Assembly (NCBI RefSeq): GCF_024518575.1
Contig: NZ_JANIHG010000005.1
Coordinates: 1-64,000 of the forward strand
DNA: 64,000 bases
From: Methanothrix sp.
GTDB lineage: Archaea; Halobacteriota; Methanosarcinia; Methanotrichales; Methanotrichaceae
Direction: 5' to 3'
Shown in pieces: positions 45,652 through 58,732 of the stretch (the stretch's first letter is position 1; each line of letters begins with the position of its first letter). The notes under the pieces are model-generated. The model saw nothing but the letters and a program-made list of their open reading frames with translations, was not told the DNA's origin and made no database searches. Made by a program: the position numbers and the translations under genes.

Positions 45652-46203
45652 TCAGCGCATTGATCTGTAGCCACTTGCGAACTCGCAGTTGACCTCGACT
45701 ACCTCGGCGTTGAAGCCTTTCAGGGAATCGGGCACCGGCCCGAGGGCGTCCGCCTTATCCTGGGTATCGATGACGCTTCCGTGCGGCACAAAGCTTCCAT
45801 CCTTCAGCGTAACACCCATCACGAGAGCCCTGTGGCCTATGAAGCATCTCTCTCCCAGAGTGGACGCGTGCACAACCGCGTTGAAACCGACGAAGCTCTC
45901 ATCTCCGATCGCCAGCGGGCCGTGAATCACGGCGCCGTGTGCGATGCTGACCTTCCTTCCGAGCTTTATCGAGCTGCCCTTGAGCCCGTGAAATATCGCG
46001 CCGTCCTGGACGTTGCACTCATCCCCTATGATTATCGGCGTCGCTTCATCTGCTCTTATCGAGACACACGGCCCGACATAAACTTTCTCACCTATGCGTA
46101 CGTCACCTATCACTACAGCAGTCTCATCCACGTAGGCTGTTGATGCTACAGTGGGCATCGATTCCTGTCTGTTCCAGGACGTTCTCGGGTTCCTTCTGAG
46201 CAT
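45652..46203 (-). CDS. Gamma-class carbonic anhydrase (CamH-like)
   Basis: 183 residues of left-handed beta-helix hexapeptide repeats. The active-site residues known from Cam of Methanosarcina thermophila are present: Arg50, Asp52, Gln66, Asp67 and the zinc histidines His72, His89 and His94. The acidic loop carrying the Cam proton-shuttle glutamate is missing, as in CamH proteins. AGGAGGGATCTC supports ATG 46203; ATG 46158 (MPTVAS) is an alternative. It has no evident secretion signal. CO2/bicarbonate exchange is relevant to acetate cleavage, which releases CO2. Confidence 0.88.
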
Positions 46204-46248
46204 GAGATCCCTCCTGAAAAAGGATGTGATTTCAATGCTTAAAGCGTT

Positions 46249-46860
46249 TTACCATACCTTGAGATCGATTGACTCTATTCTGACCCTCGATCCCTCTGAG
46301 TGGACGACAACCCCTGAGTGGACCTTCTGCATCATGCAGTGATCTGGCAGGAATCTGACGGTCCTCCCGACCTCAGGTACTCTTCCACGTACAACCCTGC
46401 CCTCGAAGGCCAGGACCATGCATATACCAAGGTCCCTGTATTCACTCCTATCCCCGTGGAGCGGGCCGACGATGCGGACCCTCGCCACGCCGTGGTCGAA
46501 CTCCAGGACCTCTGCGAAATGTGTTATCGGGCATCCAAGAGGCCTGTACCTTATCAGGTCCCCGGCCTTCAGGGTGCACTGCTCCAGCGGGTGAATATCC
46601 TCTATGCACGATCTCTCTCCGCTTAGTGGGCCCAGCGAGAACTCAGCCTCCAGACCGTCCATGACGCCCACGATCCTCTCGCGCGAGACGCCCTTCTCGA
46701 TGATCCTCCGGATCTCCTCAGCGCGATCCCGGAAGCGCTCCTGCGAGATGAACGGGCAGCGCGATATATCATCAGCGGATGAGATGTGCTCAGCGAAATC
46801 TTTGCAGCTTCTGTATCCGCATTCGCCACAGTTATAGCCGGGAAGAAGCCTCTCCAGCAT
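46249..46860 (-). CDS. 4Fe-4S cluster protein of the cysteate synthase operon
   Basis: 203 residues from MLERLLPGYNCGECGYRSC. Cys11, Cys14, Cys19 and Cys35 form the CxxCx4Cx(n)C cluster motif found in the gamma subunit of CO dehydrogenase/acetyl-CoA synthase and in RnfB. The remaining ~150 residues are mostly beta-stranded (PLGCPITHFAEVLEFDHG) and not recognised. GGGGGAGTGAG before ATG 46860 fixes the start, one base after the GTPase stop. It may hand electrons or a metallocluster to a partner; speculative. Confidence 0.8.
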   Translation of the reverse strand: MLERLLPGYNCGECGYRSCKDFAEHISSADDISRCPFISQERFRDRAEEIRRIIEKGVSRERIVGVMDGLEAEFSLGPLSGERSCIEDIHPLEQCTLKAGDLIRYRPLGCPITHFAEVLEFDHGVARVRIVGPLHGDRSEYRDLGICMVLAFEGRVVRGRVPEVGRTVRFLPDHCMMQKVHSGVVVHSEGSRVRIESIDLKVW

Positions 46861-46861
46861 C

Positions 46862-47560
46862 TCACTCCCCCAGGTACTCTGCAAATCCGTCGAGATGTCT
46901 CAGAACCCCGCGATGATGCCTCTTCGACACTCTGATCTCGCCGGTGCAGAGGGTGCATACTGCAAGCGGCGGGTTGTGCCTCAGGTGCATCTCCCCCTCG
47001 ACCTCACCAGATCCTTTTATGAGATCAGCAAGCTCCCTCGACCCCTTGCCGGTGAGCCCGTTCGCCTCAACTATCCTGCATCCGGGATTGACCTCGACGA
47101 CTCTCTCCCGGAAGACCTCCCGCTCCGCCTGAGATACAAGATCACCCTTTGTCGCCACCACAACATCAGCTGTCGTGAGCAGCGGGCCGATCTTGAGAGG
47201 CGTGTTCGGCCCAGAGGTGACATCTATCACGCAGACCGCCAGAGCCCTGTCCGGATACGGGGCGCATCTCAGACAGAGCCCAGCTGTCTCGTTCAGGAGA
47301 ACATCCGCGCCCTGCGAGCTCGCCCAAGATAGCATCTCATCTGTGTTGTATATAGAGTAGTGATCAGGGCACATATCCCTCGCGAGACCGACGCGCACAG
47401 GCACACCAAGCCGCTTTATCCGGGAGTCGTCCTCTGTCCAGAGGCAGTCGACCTTGACAACAGCCGGCCTCATCCCCATCTCCTGGAGGTTTTTTATTGC
47501 ATGCATCAGAACAGATGTCTTCCCGGATCCAGGTGTTCCCGCCACTATCACCAGCTTCAA
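46862..47560 (-). CDS. HypB/CooC-like P-loop GTPase
   Basis: 232 residues. Walker A is GTPGSGKTS (8-16), and the NKxD-type base motif appears as TKGD (137-140). Two cysteine pairs, C96LRC99 and C202TLC205, may bind a metal or cluster. The fold matches SIMIBI GTPases that insert nickel or other metals. It starts in a 4-bp overlap with the ABC ATPase stop. A role in metallocentre assembly for a coenzyme M-linked or C1 enzyme is inference from context. Confidence 0.82.
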
Positions 47561-48318
47561 ATAGCTGCCTCCGTCGCGCTCAGCACCTCCCCCCGCCTTA
47601 TCAGCTCTCTCAGAGAGAGGAGCCAGGTGTCAACTCTAAATAAAGAATCGCAGAAGCGCCTCTCCTCCTCTGTGGTGCTTATGACCTTGACCATGCCGCC
47701 GTTCCTCATGACGATCCTGCGCCCGGTCATGAGCGCGAGAAGCGGATCGTGTGTCACAACCAGCACGATCTTCCCCTCCCCGGAGAGGAGCCTCAGAGCC
47801 TCTTTCTTCCTTATGCCAGCGTTCTCTATCTCGTCTATGAGGACGATTGGCGAATCGCTTATGACCGCGATATCCGCAACCATCAACGCCCTGGACTGGC
47901 CGCCGCTGAGCTCTGTCAGGTTGTCATCTCCATGTATGGGCTCTCCTGTCAGGGTGTTCGCCATCTCCAGGACCCTGGAGAGCAGCCCCGTGTCCCTGCC
48001 CCTGCTCCTGGCGTGCATGTAAATGAAATCACAGACGCTCATGTCAGCCAGGAAATGCATGTTCTGGGAGAGCTGGGCGACCGGCTTCCTTCTCGGATCG
48101 TGCCGCAGCTCTGGATCCGGCGGGGAGCCATCGATCAGGACATACCGCCCCGACGGCGTGTCGCCCTGGGCGAACTGCTCCAGGTCAGATATCAGAGAGC
48201 TCTTGCCAGAACCCGTGGGCCCGACGATGCCTATAACCTCTCCACTCGATACATCCACCCTTCTAACGCACTCAGGCGCGCCGTCCTTATCAAATCCGCC
48301 TTTTATCGTGATAATCAT
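47557..48318 (-). CDS. ABC-type ATPase without a membrane partner
   Basis: 253 residues, a single nucleotide-binding domain. Walker A is GPTGSGKSS (33-41), the signature [12 protein letters not shown], Walker [10 protein letters not shown] and the switch histidine VVTHDP. No permease gene is nearby, so it is more likely a soluble energising ATPase than a transporter part. It overlaps cysteate synthase by 4 bp and the GTPase by 4 bp. Confidence 0.86.
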
Positions 48319-49565
48319 GCATAGATCATCTCCTCTATCGATGATAATACATTAGCAGAATCTTCCACATCGACCCTGATATCGCATTCAAGCCTTATAC
48401 GGCTGTGATCTTCGGCGAGGCGCTTCACGCCGCCACCTGTTATGTTCAGCAAGATTTCGTCATCCCTTCCGACAGCCCCTGACCCTACGGCCTCGATCAG
48501 CGCCGCGACCGCAACCGCCGCGGCTGGGAGTATGTCTATCCCCTCTCTTCCCTCGAAGAGCTTCTGGGCGCTCGCCGCCCGGGCGTTGTCTATGCCGTAT
48601 ATCCTCCCACTGGAGGAGATGACCGCATCCCTGACGCCGCCCGGAACCGCATAGGGTGGGTTCCTGTTGAAGAGCACGTCGTCGTGCATTCCCTCGGGGC
48701 AGCCGTGCGCATCGAAATTCATCTCTTCAGGGCTCAGGCCGATCCACATCGCATGCACAGGCGCGCATGGGATGTTCTGCGCCAGATGCAGGCGTGTGGG
48801 CGTGCATCCGAAGCGGCCGTCACCGATGAGGCGCATCGATGCCTCCCAGACAGCTATCCCGCCTGTGCCGCTGCCTATCGCCTGGAAGTAGTGGTCCGGC
48901 AGGGAACCGAAGCGCCTGACATGATCGAGAAGCACAGTGCCCATGCCGTCCCTCCTCGCTATGTTCCTGGCGCCGCCCTCTGGCCTGAAGCCGGTTCTGG
49001 AGGATAAAACACCTGCGAGCTTTATCGCGTCGGCGTAATCCCCATCCACCCCAACAACCAGCACCCTGCCAGGCTCGATGGTCGTCCAGAGTCGATCCAG
49101 AGATTGAGTTGGTACAAAAAGGATAACTGGCTGGCCGGTGATCGAGCAGACCTCTGCGAATGCCCTTGCTGTGTTTCCGGCTGATGCGACCACCAGGATC
49201 TCCTTCACCCCACTCTCAAGAAGCATCTGCATCGTCGGCGCTGCCTCGAGCTCCTTGAAGCTGCAAGTTCTCATCTGCGCCCCGCGCTCCGGCCAGTACC
49301 CCGAGAAGCTTATGTAGAGGTTGTTCAGACCCAGCTCGTCTGCGAGCCCGGAGCTCTTGTAGGTCACAGACGATGCGCCTGTGCCCGGATTCCATCCATC
49401 CACAGGCAGCCAGTCGATGAAAGACCAGATGCCAGGAAGCTCCCTGGGATTGAATCTCCGCTTGAGATAATCCGCCCTGGGAAGACCGCCGTCCATAGGA
49501 CATGAGGTGATGGTGTCGCTCAGCACATTCCCGCAGCCGGCACACCTCAGAGTGTACTTGCCCAT
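48315..49565 (-). CDS. Cysteate synthase
   Basis: 416 residues from [15 protein letters not shown] enzyme related to threonine synthase: N-terminal cysteines (RCAGC, SCPM), the PLP lysine in [13 protein letters not shown], and [15 protein letters not shown]. It converts phosphoserine and sulfite to cysteate, the first step of the Methanosarcinales/Methanomicrobiales coenzyme M pathway; the next steps are an aminotransferase and ComDE, not identified here. The TATA box GATTATATGC (49587-49596) is centred 27 bp before ATG 49565, giving a leaderless message. A TTG start at 49613 is thereby disfavoured. Confidence 0.9.
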
Positions 49566-49586
49566 GCTTCCAGGTTGGCCATCTCT

Positions 49587-49596
49587 GCATATAATC
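49587..49596 (-). promoter_or_regulatory. TATA box of the cysteate synthase operon
   Basis: GATTATATGC on the minus strand places transcription start exactly at ATG 49565. It may drive the whole tightly spaced series down to the 4Fe-4S gene and possibly the carbonic anhydrase gene. Confidence 0.6.
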
Positions 49597-49724
49597 TTTT
49601 CTATTTTGTACAATTAGGATGCCTTATTGTGAAACAAAATGGCTAATGATTATCTAAAAAGGATGAAATTCCGGGCGGATGAATCGATGGGAATATCTAA
49701 GATGCCGGCACTCCCATGCGATGT

Positions 49725-50771
49725 ATGATGATGGCGATCGATGTTGGTGCTGGCACCCAGGACATTCTCCTTTACAGGGAGGATGTGGAGCCTGAGGGTT
49801 TGTACAAGATGATCATGCCAAGTCAGACTGTGATAGTCGCGAGGAGGATCAGAAAGGCGACGGAGCAGGGAAAGGATGTCTTTCTGCATGGATACACTAT
49901 GGGCGGCGGGCCTATGGCTGCTGCGGTGAAGAATCATATAGCGTCCGGTTTCAGAGTCTATGCGACAACGGATGCGGCTCTCAGCATACACGATAACATC
50001 CAGCGCGTCAGTTCAATGGGGGTTGTGATAACCGAGGACCCACCTGAGGGTTGCGTGGAAATCCGGACCGGAGATATAGATCTCATGGCTCTCAGAAGCG
50101 CTCTCATCTCTTTTAATGTGGATCTGCCGGAGGCGATCGCGGTCGCGGTCCAGGATCATGGATTCTCTCCGAAGAGATCGAACAGGGCCACGAGATTTGA
50201 TATAATGAGGAGATCTCTAAAAAACGGCGGCCGGATCGGGGATTTCGCGCACCGAGAGCCTCCAGAGGCTCTGAGCAGGATGCGTGCTGTCTGGAGGTAT
50301 CTGCGTGATCAGGGGATGGATGTCATGCTCATGGACACAGGTCCTGCCGCTGTCTTTGGCGCTCTCGAAGATCCAGATTGCAGACTGCCTGCTCTCGTCC
50401 TAAATATAGGGAACGGCCACACGATCGGCGCTCTGGTGGACGATCAGAGGATCACGGCGATCTTCGAGCACCACACATCTGCACTGGATCCCCCGAAGCT
50501 CAACTCCATAGTGGAGCGGTTCTGCGCCGGAAAGCTCACGAACAGCGAGATCTTCGATGATGGCGGCCATGGGGCGCATATAGAGTGCGTTCCTGGTGAG
50601 GTGAGATCGATTCTTGTTACCGGACCCAGAAGAGGTGGGTTTGTGAGTAGAACGAAGATGAAGCTCATACAGGCTGCCCCCTGGGGGGATATGATGATAA
50701 CCGGATGCGTTGGACTCGTCAGGGCATGGCGCTCGTGGGGTGATGGCGATGGAGATAGGCAGGGGCGCTGA
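49725..50771 (+). CDS. DUF1786 family protein
   Basis: 348 residues from MMMAIDVGAGTQDILLY. The DVGAGTQD and LNIGNGHTIGAL stretches resemble the phosphate motifs of actin-like ATPases, suggesting an ASKHA-type fold. Members are sometimes misnamed pyruvate formate-lyase activating enzymes, but there is no radical SAM CxxxCxxC motif. ATG 49716 is an alternative start. It overlaps the Bud32 gene by about 20 bp on the same strand. Function unknown. Confidence 0.72.
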   Translation: MMMAIDVGAGTQDILLYREDVEPEGLYKMIMPSQTVIVARRIRKATEQGKDVFLHGYTMGGGPMAAAVKNHIASGFRVYATTDAALSIHDNIQRVSSMGVVITEDPPEGCVEIRTGDIDLMALRSALISFNVDLPEAIAVAVQDHGFSPKRSNRATRFDIMRRSLKNGGRIGDFAHREPPEALSRMRAVWRYLRDQGMDVMLMDTGPAAVFGALEDPDCRLPALVLNIGNGHTIGALVDDQRITAIFEHHTSALDPPKLNSIVERFCAGKLTNSEIFDDGGHGAHIECVPGEVRSILVTGPRRGGFVSRTKMKLIQAAPWGDMMITGCVGLVRAWRSWGDGDGDRQGR

Positions 50772-51321
50772 GGCGATTCTCACCCGGGATGGTGATGTGG
50801 TGAGAAAGTGGCGACTTCCGAAGAGCTACCGCCTCAAGGAGCTGGATGAGCGGCTTCGCGCTGAGAGGACCGTCATGGAGGCGAGGATAATGGCCGAGGC
50901 CAGGCGTGCCGGAGTCCCGACGCCTATAATCAGGGACCTCTCGAGGTTCGAGCTCGTGATGGAGTATATTGATGGAAAGAAGCTCAGGGATATCATAACG
51001 CCGGAGCTCTCAGAGCGTGTCGGGGAGCTGGTCGGAAGGCTTCACAGAGCTGGAATCGTTCACGGAGACCTCACCACCTCCAACATGCTCCTGAAAGACA
51101 ACCGGATATACCTCATAGATTTCGGCCTTGCCTACCACGACCAGAGCATCGAGGCGCAGGGCGTCGATGTTCATGTCTACTTCCAGACCCTGAGAAGCAC
51201 GCATGATGATGCGGATATTCTGATAGAATCGTTCATGCGCGGCTACAGAAGAGCCTACAAGCGAGCAGATGCTGTTCTCGCCAGGGTCGAGGAGATACGA
51301 TCCAGAGGAAGGTATCTGTGA
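50749..51321 (+). CDS. bud32: Bud32/KEOPS kinase
   Basis: 190 residues from MEIGRGAEAILTRDG. A compact RIO-like kinase: GRGAEA nucleotide loop, Lys in VVRKWRLPKSYR, ELVMEYIDG hinge, catalytic HGDLTTSNML and IDFGLA. As the ATPase of KEOPS it supports Kae1 in making t6A37 in tRNA. In many archaea it is fused to Kae1; here it is a separate gene. Starts at 50740 (GTG) and 50743 (ATG) are also open; GGGGTGAT before 50749 favours the later one. Confidence 0.9.
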   Translation: MEIGRGAEAILTRDGDVVRKWRLPKSYRLKELDERLRAERTVMEARIMAEARRAGVPTPIIRDLSRFELVMEYIDGKKLRDIITPELSERVGELVGRLHRAGIVHGDLTTSNMLLKDNRIYLIDFGLAYHDQSIEAQGVDVHVYFQTLRSTHDDADILIESFMRGYRRAYKRADAVLARVEEIRSRGRYL

Positions 51322-51396
51322 CCTGGGATTTCAACGGCTCAGGTCTGATTTTGAACCGGACTTCACAAAAAAGAGCTGGAGAGCGATAAGCTCTCC

Positions 51397-53562
51397 TCAG
51401 TTCCTCCTGCTGACGAGGTATGCGACCGCCAGGAGTCCGGTCACTGCGAAGACAGCCTCGAATCCGGGAGCGCCCTTCTCCTCGGGCTTCTTCTCCGCAG
51501 CTACAGGCTTCTTCTCGGTTACGTTGGCGGGCTTCTCCTCAACGACGGGCTTCTCCGCAGTCACGTTGGTGGGCTTCTCCTCGACTACAGGCTTCTCCTC
51601 AACGACGGGCTTCTCCGCAGTCACGTTGGCGGGCTTCTCCTCGACCACTGGCGCAGGAGCTGCACCCTCAATGGTTGCTTCCTTGTATATGTAGAACCTG
51701 AGCGGGTTCTGAGCGTCGATCACATCCTGGTCGGCTGTCTTGATGTGGATGCCAGCCATCAGGGTGACGTCCTTGTTCTTGTTGAGTGTTATTGGGTTGT
51801 CCTTGTTGTCCATCTCGATCGATGTGGCATCGACCTTGGAGATCCTCATCTTGTCGTACTCTGTGTCAACGGAGACATTCACCGGCTGATCGGAGACCTG
51901 GAATATGCCCTTGACTGTGGCTATATCCTGGTCAGCGCCGCGGAATGCGTTCTTGAAGTGGACGCCGATTATGACGAGCTTCTTTGTATCGCCGATGTTC
52001 TTCTTGTAGTAGTATGTCTGGTCAGACATCGTGGCGCCTTCCTTGGACGGGGAGACGACCTTTGTGTCAACGCTCTGTCCGTCCTTCATCAGCTCCACGT
52101 AGACCTTGTTGCCATCGACATCGATCGACTTGATGACGAGCTCGTAGCCATCAGCGAGCTTGAGCGGTGTGCCGGATGTGAACGTCCTCTCTGTATCATC
52201 ATCCATCAGCACCTTCAGCAGCTGCTCATCGACAAGCGTGTTCCTGTCGGTGGACTGCTTGTAGAGCTCCGGATCGATCTCTGCGCCGTTCCAGGTGGGC
52301 TTCTTCTCGCTGTATCCGGCGAAGTACTCCTCACCGAGGAACCCTATGGAGTTATACCAGCCCCAGCCCTCGAACTCGAACTCCTTCTCCTGGACCGTGG
52401 TTGTGTACTTGACACCATTCGGCTCCTCGAGCTTGTTGCCAGTGATGGTCATCGTGATCTGCTCGTTGCCGATGTTGTCATCGATATCGTAGTAGAAGCC
52501 GGCGAAGGTCTTCGGATCCCATGTCACCTGAGCGCCATCAACGACCTGCTGAACAGCACCGCGGATCTCATATGTCCCGGGCTCTGTGACCTCCTTGTAT
52601 ATGTAGAACCTGAGCGGGTTCTCAGCGTCGATCACATCCTGGTCGGCTGTCTTGATGTGGATGCCAGCCATCAGGGTGACGTCCTTGTTCTTGTTGAGTG
52701 TTATTGGGTTGTCCTTGTTGTCCATCTCGATCGATGTGGCATCGACCTTGGAGATCCTCATCTTGTCGTACTCTGTGTCAACGGAGACATTCACCGGCTG
52801 ATCGGAGACCTGGAATATGCCCTTGACTGTGGCTATATCCTGGTCAGCGCCGCGGAATGCGTTCTTGAAGTGGACGCCGATTATGACGAGCTTCTTTGTA
52901 TCGCCGATGTTCTTCTTGTAGTAGTATGTCTGGTCAGACATCGTGGCGCCTTCCTTGGACGGGGAGACGACCTTTGTGTCAACGCTCTGTCCGTCCTTCA
53001 TCAGCTCCACGTAGACCTTGTTGCCATCGACATCGATCGACTTGATGACGAGCTCGTAGCCATCAGCGAGCTTGAGCGGTGTGCCGGATGTGAACGTCCT
53101 CTCTGTATCATCATCCATCAGCACCTTCAGCAGCTGCTCATCGACAAGCGTGTTCCTGTCGGTGGACTGCTTGTAGAGCTCCGGATCGATCTCTGCGCCG
53201 TTCCAGGTGGGCTTCTTCTCGCTGTATCCGGCGAAGTACTCCTCACCGAGGAACCCTATGGAGTTATACCAGCCCCAGCCCTCGAACTCGAACTCCTTCT
53301 CCTGGACCGTGGTTGTGTACTTGACACCATTCGGCTCCTCGAGCTTGTTGCCAGTGATGGTCATCGTGATCTGCTCGTTGCCGATGTTGTCATCGATATC
53401 GTAGTAGAAGCCGGCGAAGTTCTGTGGATTCCAGGTGACTGTTGCACCATCAACGACCTGCTGAACAGCACCGCGGATCTCCACCTTATCGACTGCGCCG
53501 ACTACCATCGCTGTCGCTAGTACCGCTACCAGCGCTGTAATCATTATTGCAGTCTTATTCAT
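51397..53562 (-). CDS. S-layer protein with two near-identical tandem domains and PGF-CTERM tail
   Basis: 721 residues. The signal peptide is MNKTAIMITALVAVLATAMV plus a few residues. Two tandem ~275-residue Methanosarcinales S-layer (DUF1608-type) domains follow, identical except for one Gln/Glu difference visible (AQNPL/AENPL). A proline/glutamate-rich linker with VVEEKP and NVTAEKP repeats comes next, with N-glycosylation sequons. The tail PGFEAVFAVTGLLAVAYL then SRRN is a PGF-CTERM signal processed by archaeosortase A. GGAGGT seven bases before the ATG. It should form the surface lattice. Confidence 0.93.
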   Translation of the reverse strand: MNKTAIMITALVAVLATAMVVGAVDKVEIRGAVQQVVDGATVTWNPQNFAGFYYDIDDNIGNEQITMTITGNKLEEPNGVKYTTTVQEKEFEFEGWGWYNSIGFLGEEYFAGYSEKKPTWNGAEIDPELYKQSTDRNTLVDEQLLKVLMDDDTERTFTSGTPLKLADGYELVIKSIDVDGNKVYVELMKDGQSVDTKVVSPSKEGATMSDQTYYYKKNIGDTKKLVIIGVHFKNAFRGADQDIATVKGIFQVSDQPVNVSVDTEYDKMRISKVDATSIEMDNKDNPITLNKNKDVTLMAGIHIKTADQDVIDAENPLRFYIYKEVTEPGTYEIRGAVQQVVDGAQVTWDPKTFAGFYYDIDDNIGNEQITMTITGNKLEEPNGVKYTTTVQEKEFEFEGWGWYNSIGFLGEEYFAGYSEKKPTWNGAEIDPELYKQSTDRNTLVDEQLLKVLMDDDTERTFTSGTPLKLADGYELVIKSIDVDGNKVYVELMKDGQSVDTKVVSPSKEGATMSDQTYYYKKNIGDTKKLVIIGVHFKNAFRGADQDIATVKGIFQVSDQPVNVSVDTEYDKMRISKVDATSIEMDNKDNPITLNKNKDVTLMAGIHIKTADQDVIDAQNPLRFYIYKEATIEGAAPAPVVEEKPANVTAEKPVVEEKPVVEEKPTNVTAEKPVVEEKPANVTEKKPVAAEKKPEEKGAPGFEAVFAVTGLLAVAYLVSRRN
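51680..52507 (-). repeat. S-layer domain repeat, second (C-terminal) copy
   Basis: 828 bp matching 52592-53419 at an exact 912-bp offset, with one difference seen by eye (51711 G versus 52623 C). Similarity stops sharply on both sides. Confidence 0.88.
52592..53419 (-). repeat. S-layer domain repeat, first (N-terminal) copy
   Basis: Partner of 51680-52507. The flanking codons differ (NPQNFAGF versus DPKTFAGF upstream; GTYEIRG versus GAAPAP downstream), which marks the edges of the homogenised segment. Confidence 0.88.
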
Positions 53563-54060
53563 CTTTTAACCTCCTATCTTCCCATATCGGATTATTTTGC
53601 AACATACAGTCTGATTATTCTTAAAACTATTGCCCCAGTAAAGTCTGGAATATGCCATGCAGGGAACGCACCGCAGAGACCCTGTGGCATCAGCCTCACA
53701 GACTTATAGCTTCATCACCCTCCATAAATTCCCCCTTTGATGGGAATTATAGCGTAGTGATAGAGTATTTCCCTATTATATCCTTTTTGGTCCTTGTACC
53801 GCGCTGTGCATATCGAACAGCAACAAAGGGCGTAATCTAAGATGGGCTCTAACCCCAAGAGCCGCGGTGTCGGCCTTTACCGGCAGCAGATATGAGATGA
53901 AAAACAACATCGAATCTCAGATGCCAGGGTTTGCTTTAGTGATGGCAGTTGGGCATTTTGTGATCTGTGCATGCGGTCGATACAGACAAGATGGCTGCAG
54001 AGCTGGATTTTGAATGCGTGCTGGCAGAGGGTTTAATGTAAACAAAAACATTTTAACGCC
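53563..54060. other. 498-bp upstream region of the S-layer gene
   Basis: No gene is credible. On the minus strand GGATATAATAGGG (53771-53783), preceded by an A-rich BRE-like stretch, is the best S-layer promoter; it implies a leader of about 190 nt, long for an archaeon and a possible site of mRNA stabilisation. The plus-strand side near 54030-54045 (GTTTAATGTAAAC) may serve the deacetylase gene. Confidence 0.45.
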
Positions 54061-54081
54061 ATGCAGCTAGATGACAAATAT

Positions 54082-55095
54082 ATGACATCCATCGTTTACC
54101 ACCCTGTGTACCTGATGCACGAGACCCACGAGCATCCTGAGAGAAAGGAGCGCCTGATAGCCATAATGGAGAGGATCGAGGAGGCGGAGCTGAATCTGAA
54201 CAGAATAGAGCCCAGACCTGCGTCCCTCGATAAAATCGAGGCAGTCCACTCGCGCCGCTACATCGAGCAAGTGAGGAGCATCTGCGAGCGTGGTGGCGGG
54301 CGTCTCGATATAGACACAGTCCTCTCGAAGGACTCGTACGATGTCGCGCTCATGGCCGCCGGCGGCGTCTGCGCGGGCGTTGATCACGTCATGAAGAGAC
54401 CGGAACCCGTGTTCGCCCTGGTCAGGCCTCCTGGACACCATGCTACGCCACACAGAGGCATGGGCTTCTGCGTCTTCAACAACGTTGCGATAGGCGCTAG
54501 GTATGCTCAATCACTGGGGCTGAAAAGGGTGCTCATCGTCGACTGGGATGTGCACCACGGCAACGGCACGCAGGCTGCATTCTATGAGGATGACAGCGTT
54601 CTGTACTTCTCCACACATCAGCACCCGCACTACCCTGGAACAGGCAGGATCACCGAGGTGGGCGATGGGAAGGGGAAGGGCTTCACTGTGAACGTTCCGC
54701 TGTTTCCTGGGGTGGACGACAGCGGATATCTGGCTGTGTACAGAGAGATACTGGTGCCGGTAGCCGATGAATTCAGGCCTGATATTGTGCTTGTGTCCGC
54801 TGGCTTTGACCCTCACCAGATGGACCCGCTGGGTGGAATGCGGATAACAGAGGACGGCTTCGGCGCGCTCGCGGGACTGGTGAAGGATATAGCTGAGAGG
54901 CACGCAGGGGGGCGTCTCGTCGCAGCGCTCGAGGGCGGTTACCGCCTTGAATCCCTCTCAGAATCAGTCGTCTCTGTCCTCAGGGCATTCCAGGGCGATG
55001 TTCCTGAGGTCAGACCGCTGAAAGATGCGCAGCTCACCCGCAGGATCGAGGAGGTCAAGAGCGTCCAGAAAGCATACTGGCGGAGCCTCGCCTGA
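54082..55095 (+). CDS. Histone-deacetylase-family (AcuC-like) zinc hydrolase
   Basis: 337 residues from MTSIVYHPVYLMHETHEHPERKER. Active-site motifs are complete: RPPGHHAT (tandem histidines), DWDVHHGNGTQ with the zinc Asp and His, STHQHPHYPG, SAGFDPHQMDPLGG with the second zinc Asp, and ALEGGYRLE. The family removes acetyl groups from lysines or polyamine-like substrates; in archaea targets may include Alba, histones or acetyl-CoA synthetase. An ATG at 54061 seven codons upstream is an alternative; neither has a clear ribosome binding site. Confidence 0.9.
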   Translation: MTSIVYHPVYLMHETHEHPERKERLIAIMERIEEAELNLNRIEPRPASLDKIEAVHSRRYIEQVRSICERGGGRLDIDTVLSKDSYDVALMAAGGVCAGVDHVMKRPEPVFALVRPPGHHATPHRGMGFCVFNNVAIGARYAQSLGLKRVLIVDWDVHHGNGTQAAFYEDDSVLYFSTHQHPHYPGTGRITEVGDGKGKGFTVNVPLFPGVDDSGYLAVYREILVPVADEFRPDIVLVSAGFDPHQMDPLGGMRITEDGFGALAGLVKDIAERHAGGRLVAALEGGYRLESLSESVVSVLRAFQGDVPEVRPLKDAQLTRRIEEVKSVQKAYWRSLA

Positions 55096-55147
55096 TAGAA
55101 GTGATCAACGGACCGTGAGGCAGTGCATTTGGCGGGAACACCCGGAT

Positions 55148-55225
55148 CTTTGACTTGACGTCGAAGGGCTTCGGCAAAGTCGAAGCGCAGGAAGCTCCGC
55201 TCTTCAGGGTGGAGAGGGGGTCACT
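55148..55225 (+). mobile_element. TnpB-type right-end remnant abutting the CCA-adding enzyme gene
   Basis: Shares AAGTCGAAGCGCAGGAAGC and CCGCTCTTCAGGG with 32930-32961 and ends in GGTCAC. The stem CTTTGACTT/AAGTCGAAG (one G-T pair) matches the perfect stem at 32915-32938. The remnant touches the stop codon (55228-55226) of the CCA-adding enzyme gene, so the insertion may have replaced the last codons of that gene. No TnpB coding sequence is seen here. Confidence 0.6.
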
Positions 55226-56539
55226 CTAACACACTGTGACCCTTTTATTCAGATACGCTGTGAGAAACCCCGCAAGATCCCCGTCCATCTGCTCCAGCAT
55301 CTCGCGCGTGGATAAGATCCTCCGCTCGCCCGAGGAGAGATGCCTCCCAAGAGATATCCTGTCTATCTCACCTCTGAGCAGATCCACAGCCCTTCTGTAC
55401 TTTCTGGTGATCTCAACGACGAGCCTGCCATTCTCGATGTACGGCCCTGAGAGCGGCGAGGGGTTGCTTCTGACAAACCTGGATGCGTGCTCCGCCTCCC
55501 AGACCGGAGGTCCTGTGTGTCTCCTCGCAGACGGGAGCTCCCAGATCGAGAGCTCGAAGAGCAGGCGCGCCCTGACATCCCCTCCGCGGAGGAGATCGAC
55601 ATCGCTTCGTAGCAGTTGGAAACCCTCCCTCTCGAGGAGGTTTTTGATAGATGCCTCGGCCTTTCTCATCTGAGGATAGAGGACATCATCGACCATATCA
55701 GGGGCGATGATCTCCAGGAGGATGAACTCCGTGCCCCTCCGCTCGATCTCGGCCCTGATCTCATCCGGTCTCATCGTATGAGACTCCGGCGGGAAGAAGA
55801 AGCTGATGTCAGGGGATTTCAGGAAGCATCTCGCCGCTGCGACGAACTGGGACATCCTGTCCAGAGTCAGGGCAGCGGCCACGTTCCTGTTCGGATCCAC
55901 AGGATCTATGACCACAAGTGGCGCACTGATGTCCGCGCCCTTCGCAATATCTATCCTAATTCCGGGGCGCCAGGAGCTCGCCCCCTCCAGGACCCTGAGG
56001 AACGAGCCGTAATGGATCACGAGAAGCTCAGCCAGGTAGCCGGAGAATCCGCCTGTTTTCAGGTCAGAGCCGTAGACACCGACGCCCTTCATGAACTGCT
56101 TCAGCAAGAGAACGTCGTCCTCACGCCCCTTTATGCGCTCAGAGACATAGAGCGAGTGGAACGGCGTTCTGTCGACGGCTGATTTTATCCTTGCAGGATC
56201 CCTCACGTCATAACACGGCACGAGATCTACTTCAAAGCCATCAATGACAGCATGAACATACGCGTGCTCAGCGTACCTCTCCTCGTGCGCGGGCGCGATC
56301 TCCCTCGCGATCTCCAACGCCACGCCGAGATCCCCATCCTCAGGTACGGCGAGAAATATGTCTATGTCGCGATCCCCGGAGAGCCATGTGTTTCTGGCGG
56401 CAGATCCTACGAGAATTCCGCGGCACGCGACGCCCTTTGCCCCTGCGACCTCTCCTACCCGCCGGAGGAGGTCGGATGAGATCCTCTCGATCTGCCTGCG
56501 CTCCTCCTCTGATGGCTTTATCCTTCTGAGGACCTCACT
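55226..56539 (-). CDS. cca: Archaeal (class I) CCA-adding enzyme, start codon unclear
   Basis: The frame is open from 56587 to 55226. From 56539 it reads like the family N-terminus, [17 protein letters not shown], then the nucleotidyltransferase motif GSAARNTWLSGDRDIDIF with the catalytic aspartates, then YAEHAYVHAVI, DRTPFHSLY and GGFSGYLAELL. It adds CCA to tRNA 3' ends; tRNA genes here do not encode CCA. No ATG, GTG or TTG exists in this frame before 56323, which lies after the catalytic motif. A GTG at 56538 overlapping the thpR stop is one base out of frame. So either an unusual start codon is used or a 1-base frameshift exists. Confidence 0.8.
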   Translation of the reverse strand, partial: SEVLRRIKPSEEERRQIERISSDLLRRVGEVAGAKGVACRGILVGSAARNTWLSGDRDIDIFLAVPEDGDLGVALEIAREIAPAHEERYAEHAYVHAVIDGFEVDLVPCYDVRDPARIKSAVDRTPFHSLYVSERIKGREDDVLLLKQFMKGVGVYGSDLKTGGFSGYLAELLVIHYGSFLRVLEGASSWRPGIRIDIAKGADISAPLVVIDPVDPNRNVAAALTLDRMSQFVAAARCFLKSPDISFFFPPESHTMRPDEIRAEIERRGTEFILLEIIAPDMVDDVLYPQMRKAEASIKNLLEREGFQLLRSDVDLLRGGDVRARLLFELSIWELPSARRHTGPPVWEAEHASRFVRSNPSPLSGPYIENGRLVVEITRKYRRAVDLLRGEIDRISLGRHLSSGERRILSTREMLEQMDGDLAGFLTAYLNKRVTVC

Positions 56540-57074
56540 GAGAAGCTCTGAACTCTGCGATGTCCTCGTATATCGGCCCCCTCGGCGTCAGAGTGCTCTT
56601 TTTGAGCACGAACCTCTCGACCGTGAACTCCCCGAGATCGAGGTCTGACATCCCTGATATCCTCTCCGACAGCAGACGGCTCAGCGACGGATCCTTCACC
56701 CTCGCCAGGGTCGCGTGCGCGCTGAAGCGCTTATCCTGCTCGAATCCGAACGGCTCCAGCGCGCTCTCAACCGCGGCTGCGAGCTCTTCAAATGAGCCTG
56801 TGGCTCCGAGCCAGATCACTCTGATGGTCCTGCCCGGAAACGCGCCGACACCCCTGATGCGCGCCTGGAAGGGGGTGAACCTTATGCGCGCAAGCGCATC
56901 TGTGATCTGATCGATTCTCCTCTCCGGCACCTCCCCCAGGAACTTCAGGGTTATGTGCACCAGCTCCGGCTCCACCAGCTTGAGACCGTCCATCGCGATC
57001 TTCTGCTGGACCTCGGGTATCTTGAGCTTTATCTCCTCAGGCAGGTCGACAGCGACAAAGCATCTGAGACTCAT
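56535..57074 (-). CDS. thpR: RNA 2',3'-cyclic phosphodiesterase (LigT/ThpR family)
   Basis: 179 residues with the two HxTx catalytic motifs, HITL (near 41) and HATL (near 122), of the 2H phosphoesterase fold. It opens 2',3'-cyclic phosphates on RNA and relatives ligate tRNA halves in vitro. It lies between ilvD (4-bp overlap) and the CCA-adding enzyme gene (stop/start overlap zone), and coupling to cca suggests a tRNA-end processing role. Confidence 0.92.
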
Positions 57075-58732
57075 CTGAGGATTCCGCCCTTGCTCGCAGA
57101 CGTCACAGACTTTCTGTACCTCTCCAGGACCCCACCCATCACCTTCGGCTCGGGCGGCCTCCAGGATGCGCGCCTTCTCTCCAGCACGCTCTCATCGACG
57201 AGCAGATCGAGCCGTCTGTTCGGTATATCTATGGAGACCATATCCCCATCTTCGACGAGCGCTATCGGCCCGCCGACGGCTGCCTCCGGGGAGACATGGC
57301 CTATGCAGGGGCCGCGCGTGCCGCCGCTGAACCTGCCGTCTGTTATGAGAGCCACAGACTCGCTGAGCCCTGCGCCTGCGATCGCAGATGTCGGCGCCAG
57401 CGTCTCCCTCATGCCAGGTCCGCCCTTCGGCCCCTCGTATCTTATTATCACAACATCCCCGGCCCTGACCTCACCGCTCAGTATGCCCTTCATCGACTCC
57501 TCCTCGGAGTCGTAGACGACCGCAGGGCCCTTGTGCACGAGCATCTTCTTCGAGACCGCGGTCTGCTTCACGACAGAACCCTCAGGCGCCAGGCTCCCCT
57601 TGAGTATCGCGATCCCGCCCTCGGGATGCACCGGCTTATCGAGAGTCGCTATGACCTCTGCGTTCGTCTTGGGGTTGACGGGTTTGAACTCCGCAAGCAA
57701 CGCGCCGAGCGTCTTTCCTGTGACCGTGAGGACGCTCAGGTCCAGCTTGGATGAGAGACGCTGCATCACGGCAGGTATGCCACCTGCGCGATCGAGATCC
57801 AGCATGTGATACGGTCCGCCTGGTCTGAGGTTGACGAGATGCGGCGTATCCCTGCTCAGCCTGTCGAAGAGCTCCAGCTCAAGCTCGAGTCCGAACTCGG
57901 CCGCTATCGCCGGAAGGTGCAGGACCGTGTTCGTTGATCCACCTATGGCCATATCGACCCTAACAGCGTTCTCGAATGACTCTCTTGTGACGATCTTCCT
58001 CGCTGTGAGACCCTTTCTCACGAGCTCCACGATCTTCATCCCTGAGAGCTTGGCCAGGCGCATCTTCTTCGCATCCACAGCGTGCGCGGTCGCGCATCCG
58101 GGCAGGCTCAATCCCAGGGCTTCAGTCATGCAGGCCATCGAGTTCGCGGTGAAGAGGCCTGCGCATGATCCTGCGCCTGGGCATGCGAGGTCCTCCAAGA
58201 TCGATATCGTCTCTCCGCCCTTCTGCCACTCCTCGAAGACGTTGATGAGATCAAGCTCACGATCGCATGCGTATCCGGGAAGCATCGGGCCGCCAGTGAC
58301 AACTATGCTCGGAAGATCAAGCCTGCCGGCGGCCATGAGATGGCCGGGGACGATCTTGTCGCATGTGGGTATCAGAACAAGCCCATCGAGCTGGTGCGAC
58401 TGGGCCATGATCTCTATCGAGTCCTCTATCACCTCTCTCGAGGGCAGAGAGTACTTCATCCCGCCGTGGCCCATCGCGATGCCATCGCAGACCCCGATCG
58501 TCTGGAACTCGAACGGTATGCCTCCGGCCATCCGTATGCCTGCCTTCACAGCCTCCGCGATCCTGTCGAGATGGATATGCCCTGGTATGAACTCGTTCGC
58601 CGAGTTCGCCACGCCTATGAATGGCCTCTCGATCTCATCCTCTGTGATCCCCATCGCCTTGAGAAGGGCGCGGTGTGGTGCCCTTTCAGGCCCTGACTTG
58701 GTGATGTCGCTCCTCATTACAATCCCAGCCAT
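57071..58732 (-). CDS. ilvD: Dihydroxy-acid dehydratase
   Basis: 553 residues. It dehydrates dihydroxy-isovalerate and dihydroxy-methylvalerate in valine/isoleucine synthesis using an Fe-S cluster. Cluster cysteines are in PTCDKIVPG and [17 protein letters not shown], and [10 protein letters not shown] and [19 protein letters not shown] are conserved. ATG 58717 ([15 protein letters not shown]) is an alternative start closer to the family norm. thpR overlaps its end by 4 bp. Confidence 0.95.

Follow-up and report, generated by a model that had tools for sequence, protein, structure and literature searches.

MA0829, the crystallised S-layer protein of Methanosarcina acetivorans, has N- and C-terminal parts of high similarity (PMC12175726; all papers are cited here for the parts of their text that were accessible). 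This Methanosarcinales S-layer tile protein (MSTP, DUF1608/PF07752) is built of tandem PF07752 domains, a charged tether and a C-terminal membrane segment, an arrangement shared by the Methanothrix protein described below. In Methanothrix thermoacetophila PT, three S-layer homologues are known: Mthe_0677, Mthe_1177 and a third given as Mthe_0148 (PMC3361143) or Mthe_0149 (PMC10470525). Mthe_0677 is the most highly expressed, its transcripts reaching 304–392 times the median, against 17–30 and 4–5 times for the other two (PMC10470525). If genome G005 (below) is that of PT, as the order of its S-layer loci suggests, the two domains of Mthe_0677 are also nearly identical to each other, although its core sequence differs from the one reported here.

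Homogenisation of gene copies is itself a described process. One survey reports 26 prokaryotic genes under long-lasting concerted evolution (PMC6053082), and paralogues such as tuf, mtrA and mtmB are recurrently homogenised, silent sites included, in many species; for mtrA this concerns the shared domain only (PMC6053082, PMC4632066). The partners in these cases are separate genes, whereas here a single reading frame contains both partners, as domains. The sheath proteins of Methanothrix (SH/MspA) are likewise surface proteins, encoded in gene clusters where recent duplicates can reach 100% identity (PMC11576556), but these are whole-gene duplicates of what appears to be another protein family, the present gene belonging to PF07752. 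The word "S-layer" is absent from the accessible main text of PMC6053082, as is the term "gene conversion" from the accessible part of the S-layer review PMC12175726, and in the open-licence literature we found no report of gene conversion between domains of an S-layer gene.

The window, i.e. the whole stretch of 64,000 nucleotides of Methanothrix sp. (genome G000) that was analysed, contains such a gene, with the following features.

51397..53562, minus strand: S-layer gene, 721 aa (open reading frame list and Pfam)
51403..51468, minus strand: PGF-CTERM anchor, residues 699-720 (Pfam)
51469..51684, minus strand: repetitive Pro/Glu/Lys/Asn charged tether with NVT sequons, limits approximate (sequence)
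51680..52507, minus strand: copy B of the homogenised core, 828 bp, with a single mismatch (51711) to copy A (self-alignment)
51727..52524, minus strand: domain B, residues 347-612 (profile HMM envelope)
52508..52534, minus strand: B-specific edge, apparently unconverted, 27 nt (self-alignment and genome comparison)
52570..52593, minus strand: inter-domain linker EVTEPGTY, conserved in the family (linker comparison)
52592..53419, minus strand: copy A of the homogenised core, 828 bp (self-alignment)
52639..53436, minus strand: domain A, residues 43-308 (profile HMM envelope)
53420..53446, minus strand: A-specific edge, apparently unconverted, 27 nt (A-type sequence also in G001, G002, G004 and G005)
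53447..53481, minus strand: island of 35 nt in A with the same sequence as 52535-52569 in B, candidate B-to-A conversion patch (self-alignment and genome comparison)
53699..53800, minus strand: 102-bp conserved block, 137-238 bp upstream of the start codon (comparison of 6 genomes)

PF07752, in two tandem stretches (E 1.8e-174), and a C-terminal PGF-CTERM (PF18204, E 7.3e-08) are the only Pfam matches of the protein above cut-off, which would speak against a sheath protein (MspA/SH); 3u2g/3u2h is its only PDB match (E 6.8e-34). The N-terminus is hydrophobic and, judged by eye, could be a signal peptide. The AlphaFold model, built on a four-sequence alignment, is too poor for a fold comparison (mean pLDDT 46, pTM 0.28). 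The length of 721 aa, the neighbouring genes and the order of the S-layer loci suggest orthology with Mthe_0677: in G005, a genome assembled as one contig (1,879,471 bp), the loci lie at 138, 716 and 1264 kb, as fits the three homologues of PT. From homology and the expression of Mthe_0677 we infer that the product of the window's gene forms the surface lattice. The 102-bp upstream block is 100% identical in all six genomes of the genus, the adjoining genes having a dS of at least 0.3. It contains TATA-like motifs and a GGAGGGTGATG stretch, and probably serves this very strongly expressed gene as promoter and 5' leader; a scan of positions 46000-58000 of the window against Rfam matched no family. 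On the opposite strand, an open frame of 591 aa (51745-53520, plus) crosses both domains and is repeated as the S-layer gene is; it looks like a shadow of the codon usage of this gene rather than a gene of its own.

The two copies (51680-52507 and 52592-53419, offset 912 bp) share 827 of 828 bases, 31 in one exact run and 796 in another. The sole mismatch of the core, G at 51711 and C at 52623 on the plus strand, changes GAG to CAG (Glu/Gln). Between nucleotides 145 and 969 of the gene there is one nonsynonymous difference, and none at about 182 synonymous sites. The edges are sharp: on the low side of copy B 64% of the positions mismatch over 51500-51679, and on the other side 11 mismatches in 27 bp (52508-52534) precede an exact island of 35 bp (52535-52569 / 53447-53481), beyond which the copies diverge. 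The exact alignment agrees with the earlier note as to coordinates, offset and single mismatch, as well as to the sharp edges and the near-identity at synonymous sites. A near-identity of this extent is excluded as a product of chance.

The same gene was compared within the genus, in a set of six genomes that includes the window's own and whose S-layer genes are of three main kinds. In the orthologue of G005 the copies are separated by one silent difference over 830 bp (gene nucleotides 144-973), and yet in the core they differ from those of the window by 43–44 synonymous and 47–48 nonsynonymous changes (dS about 0.28). More generally, the core dS between A and B of one gene is 0.000 in G000, 0.006 in G005 and 0.123 in G004 (20.5 synonymous differences), against 0.22–0.31 between species, with the exception of the pair G002-G005 (0.000–0.006); for the genes flanking the S-layer gene, dS between species ranges from 0.32 to 1.01. 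The copies within a gene are therefore much closer to each other than to their orthologues.

The exceptional pair deserves a separate comment. In G002 (locus L096, contig C108), DNA identity with G005 is about 98.6–100% over a region that starts some 670 bp upstream of the S-layer gene and runs to the end of the contig, and 87.9% over the remaining 5.3 kb; in the core, dS is 0 of 167 sites, the other S-layer genes standing at 0.43–0.44. Either an exchange of the S-layer region across species or a strain-chimeric contig would account for this region.

The other two-domain genes of the same genomes served as controls. In all six genomes of the genus, the dS between A and B is 1.29–2.0 for the paralogues resembling Mthe_0149 and 1.02–1.38 for those resembling Mthe_1177; over 30 0149-like genes its minimum is 0.63 and its median 1.40, and in the tree with G000 and G005 the 0149-like domains group by position and not by gene. 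Comparison with other Methanothrix S-layer genes, which had been proposed as a check, thus confines the near-identity to the main gene. One genome (G003, contig C20) has in addition a 645-aa open frame, L098, an extra two-domain copy devoid of tether and of PGF-CTERM-like end; its domains have a dS of 0.66 but share an exact run of 114 bp.

PF07752 is present in all 50 Methanotrichaceae genomes searched. Among the matches listed, a two-domain main gene could be measured in at least 20 of them, repeat-broken genes being left out; the dS counts mostly leave aside genes truncated at contig ends, apart from those of G012 and G033, slightly cut on the N-terminal side, which were kept. For these 20 genes the dS between A and B runs from 0.011 to 0.554 (median 0.20). 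The codon tree pairs A with B of the same gene in 20/20, the identical copy of G002 falling inside the G005 pair, and 20/20 is again obtained when G002 is removed; in the protein tree they come together in 18 of the 20. A low dS might be attributed to codon bias; this objection is answered by the finding that in 19/20 genes the dS between A and B is lower than that to domain A of the nearest other gene. The copies of one gene thus resemble each other, silent sites included, more than they resemble the orthologous copies, as expected of concerted evolution.

The homogenised part has recognisable limits. Over 18 genes, codon identity between A and B per block of ten residues is 0.64–0.94 at residues 53–322 and 0.03–0.43 at the edges. 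Core proteins are 0.93 identical between A and B of a gene; between genes, A-A, B-B and A-B comparisons all give 0.62–0.63, so that no A or B lineage is left in the core. On the N-terminal edge, by contrast with the core, position matters: identity is 0.50 for A-A and 0.54 for B-B between species, versus 0.48 for A-B within genes and 0.35 for A-B between species.

We propose, with a probability of about 0.88, that these sequences record long-lasting gene conversion inside the gene after an ancient duplication, together with occasional unequal crossing-over. What sequence comparison establishes in favour of this proposal is an old duplication, homogenisation of the core at silent sites, recurrence in several species, tracts with two boundaries and a B-type patch in A. 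The two domains of the Mthe_0677 orthologue would have arisen by an ancient internal duplication, and homologous recombination between the two halves of the gene would have copied one core onto the other ever since. The conversion, within or between sister chromosomes, would probably depend on RadA. Both halves would then evolve as one sequence inside a species and yet differ between species. Conversion tracts would end near residues 50 and 323, so that the linker and the opening strand of either domain stay position-specific, and unequal crossing-over would now and then alter the number of domains. That only this gene behaves so might be due to the high identity of its halves, which would be self-sustaining, perhaps helped by selection to keep the two lattice units interchangeable.

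Unequal crossing-over might also be thought to do most of the work, by expansion (2+2 to 3+1) and contraction (3 to 2), in place of conversion tracts. It would keep the edges and the linkers, and a natural three-domain gene does exist: L177 of G087, a genome in one contig of 3.07 Mb, encodes 925 aa. Its domains B and C have a dS of 0.006, are 99.3% identical with an exact run of 540 bp, and have identical linkers. However, this is one gene with three domains among the 20 + 53 genes of the tree sets, and a single exchange would run identity up to one end, two tract boundaries being the prediction of conversion. In 19/21 comparisons, on genes chosen for their long runs, exact tracts of 134–584 bp have differences on both sides; in L175, from the single-contig genome G067, a tract of 405 bp stands between 80 differences in 252 positions and 54 in 144. 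The longest exact run exceeds the expectation from codon shuffling (permutation, p<0.05) in 16/20 Methanotrichaceae genes; in the other four (G004, G005, G008 and G033) these shuffles gave no significant clustering. We thus find it improbable that unequal crossing-over is the chief agent, and favour conversion.

The near-identity might, on the other hand, be created by the assembly, through collapse or consensus of a diverged pair. The run of 796 bp occurs in an assembly of 72 contigs, and other assemblies break in the repeat: in G002 two contigs overlap there by exactly 141 bp, as in their k141 contig names—presumably 141 is the k-mer size—and in G003 the gene starts at the very end of contig C7 while contig C8 begins inside a domain. 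But the linker between the copies is present in the window's contig, which implies at least two copies, and the same near-identity is found in the single-contig G005, where a collapse of short reads is unlikely; exact runs of 510–540 bp also occur in the single-contig genomes G059 and G087. The assembly of the window could have flattened minor differences between A and B; that it produced the pattern has in our view only a slim chance.

Fragmented assemblies matter equally for genes with one domain. G001 (MAG SKW87) has an S-layer gene of 421 aa with the start of A and the end of B, which either a real loss or a collapse would give; a search of this MAG, among those with one-domain or broken genes, for an unplaced linker yielded no full-length match, which fits loss as well as collapse since short contigs are possibly absent. 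One-domain frames of 415–431 aa are found in G027—besides longer S-layer frames—G038 and G046, in assemblies of about 380 contigs or more. We rejected as such the frame of G043 (at most 435 aa), whose contig begins inside the repeat. All in all, the one-domain genes observed come exclusively from fragmented MAGs, of 150 to 490 contigs, and in assemblies of about 30 contigs or fewer the main gene has two domains in 7/7 cases (G004, G005, G008, G014, G016, G019 and G021). The one-domain genes may thus be assembly collapses, and we make no claim of natural one-domain lattices. The locus had been suspected of being prone to domain gain and loss; the gain finds an example in the three-domain gene of G087, the loss is left with these fragmented MAGs.

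Had each species duplicated the domain on its own and very recently, from an ancestor with one domain, A and B would also be sisters everywhere, and the one-domain frames of four fragmented MAGs (G001, G027, G038 and G046) might recall such an ancestor. However, the A-edge, the TEPGTY-type linker and the B-edge are each specific of their position and common to the species of the genus and across the family, the linker being still recognisable in Methanosarcinaceae. The duplication is therefore old, older than the split of the species, and only the cores are young. Moreover, a one-domain gene with the start of A and the end of B has no linker to duplicate, and the exact tracts lie inside the core, whose sequence is diverged on either side of them. 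In the island of 35 bp, domain A of the window has B-type bases, domain A of G001, G002, G004 and G005 being of another type, for which a patch transferred from B to A would be the simplest reading. The earlier note had left a choice between very recent duplication and ongoing gene conversion; the shared edges and linker speak against the former, whose probability we consider very low, and favour gene conversion, which may be ongoing.

The protein halves might also be kept identical by purifying selection, with no recombination involved. This would agree with the 93% identity of the core proteins and with the high expression, but is refuted as sole cause by the identity of silent sites (0 differences of about 182) that differ between species, and its likelihood is negligible.

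How far does this behaviour extend? In Methanosarcinaceae and their neighbours, genes were picked by their match to the MA0829-type protein; the trees omit L136, L137-L141, L142, L143, L144, L163 and L193, which are other paralogues, truncated or with domains partly matched, and the truncated L150 is in the tree (n = 53) but outside the dS tally (n = 52). The MA0829-type genes, of about 670–700 aa and one of them from another family, have a dS between A and B of 0.012–0.92 (median 0.42), below 0.7 in 45/52. L155 contains all five compared fragments of the 3u2g crystal chain and is taken as MA0829; DNA identity between its domains is 87.6%, with an exact run of 180 bp, compared to 99.9% over 828 bp in the window. 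A and B are monophyletic in 29/53 genes in the codon tree and in 26/53 in the protein tree, and closer in dS than the nearest A/A pair in 33/53, which suggests a homogenisation slower or partial in Methanosarcinaceae, where exact tracts have diverged sequence around them. The earlier note described the domains of Methanosarcina as clearly diverged: this holds for 23 paralogues of the 871-aa and 1150-aa types (dS at least 0.74), but not for MA0829 and most genes of its type. The 949-aa paralogue L136 and L142-L144 have a dS of at least 1.06. Two further observations concern particular genes. In G120, from a third lineage of the class, the two-domain gene L192 has an exact run of 740 bp and a dS of 0.012; in L149, L151 and L153 (G094, G098 and G121) the genome search gave one in-frame TAA within the MA0829-type match.

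A broader view may be formulated, which we regard as unlikely in its entirety: throughout the class Methanosarcinia, the main S-layer gene would be a self-correcting internal pair, in which conversion predates the split of Methanotrichales and Methanosarcinales and every accepted change passes to both lattice units. Cores would be swapped between species as a block, as the core of MAG G002 identical to that of PT may show, and the coat could then change abruptly and symmetrically, for example under the pressure of viruses.

Processes of this kind are known. That one operates inside a single major S-layer gene, from domain to domain, across the family and partly across the class, appears to be new. 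S-layer phylogenies are directly concerned, as A and B are unusable as separate lineages. A caution also follows for genomics: in these methanogens the main S-layer gene is a place where short-read assemblies break and where they may collapse. Few prokaryotic genes have been reported with long-lasting concerted evolution, and here it concerns the domains of a single, highly expressed reading frame for a surface protein. The same genomes contain sister paralogues of the same architecture that are not homogenised, which isolates causes specific to this gene—its expression, the symmetry of the lattice or an identity that sustains itself—and makes them testable.
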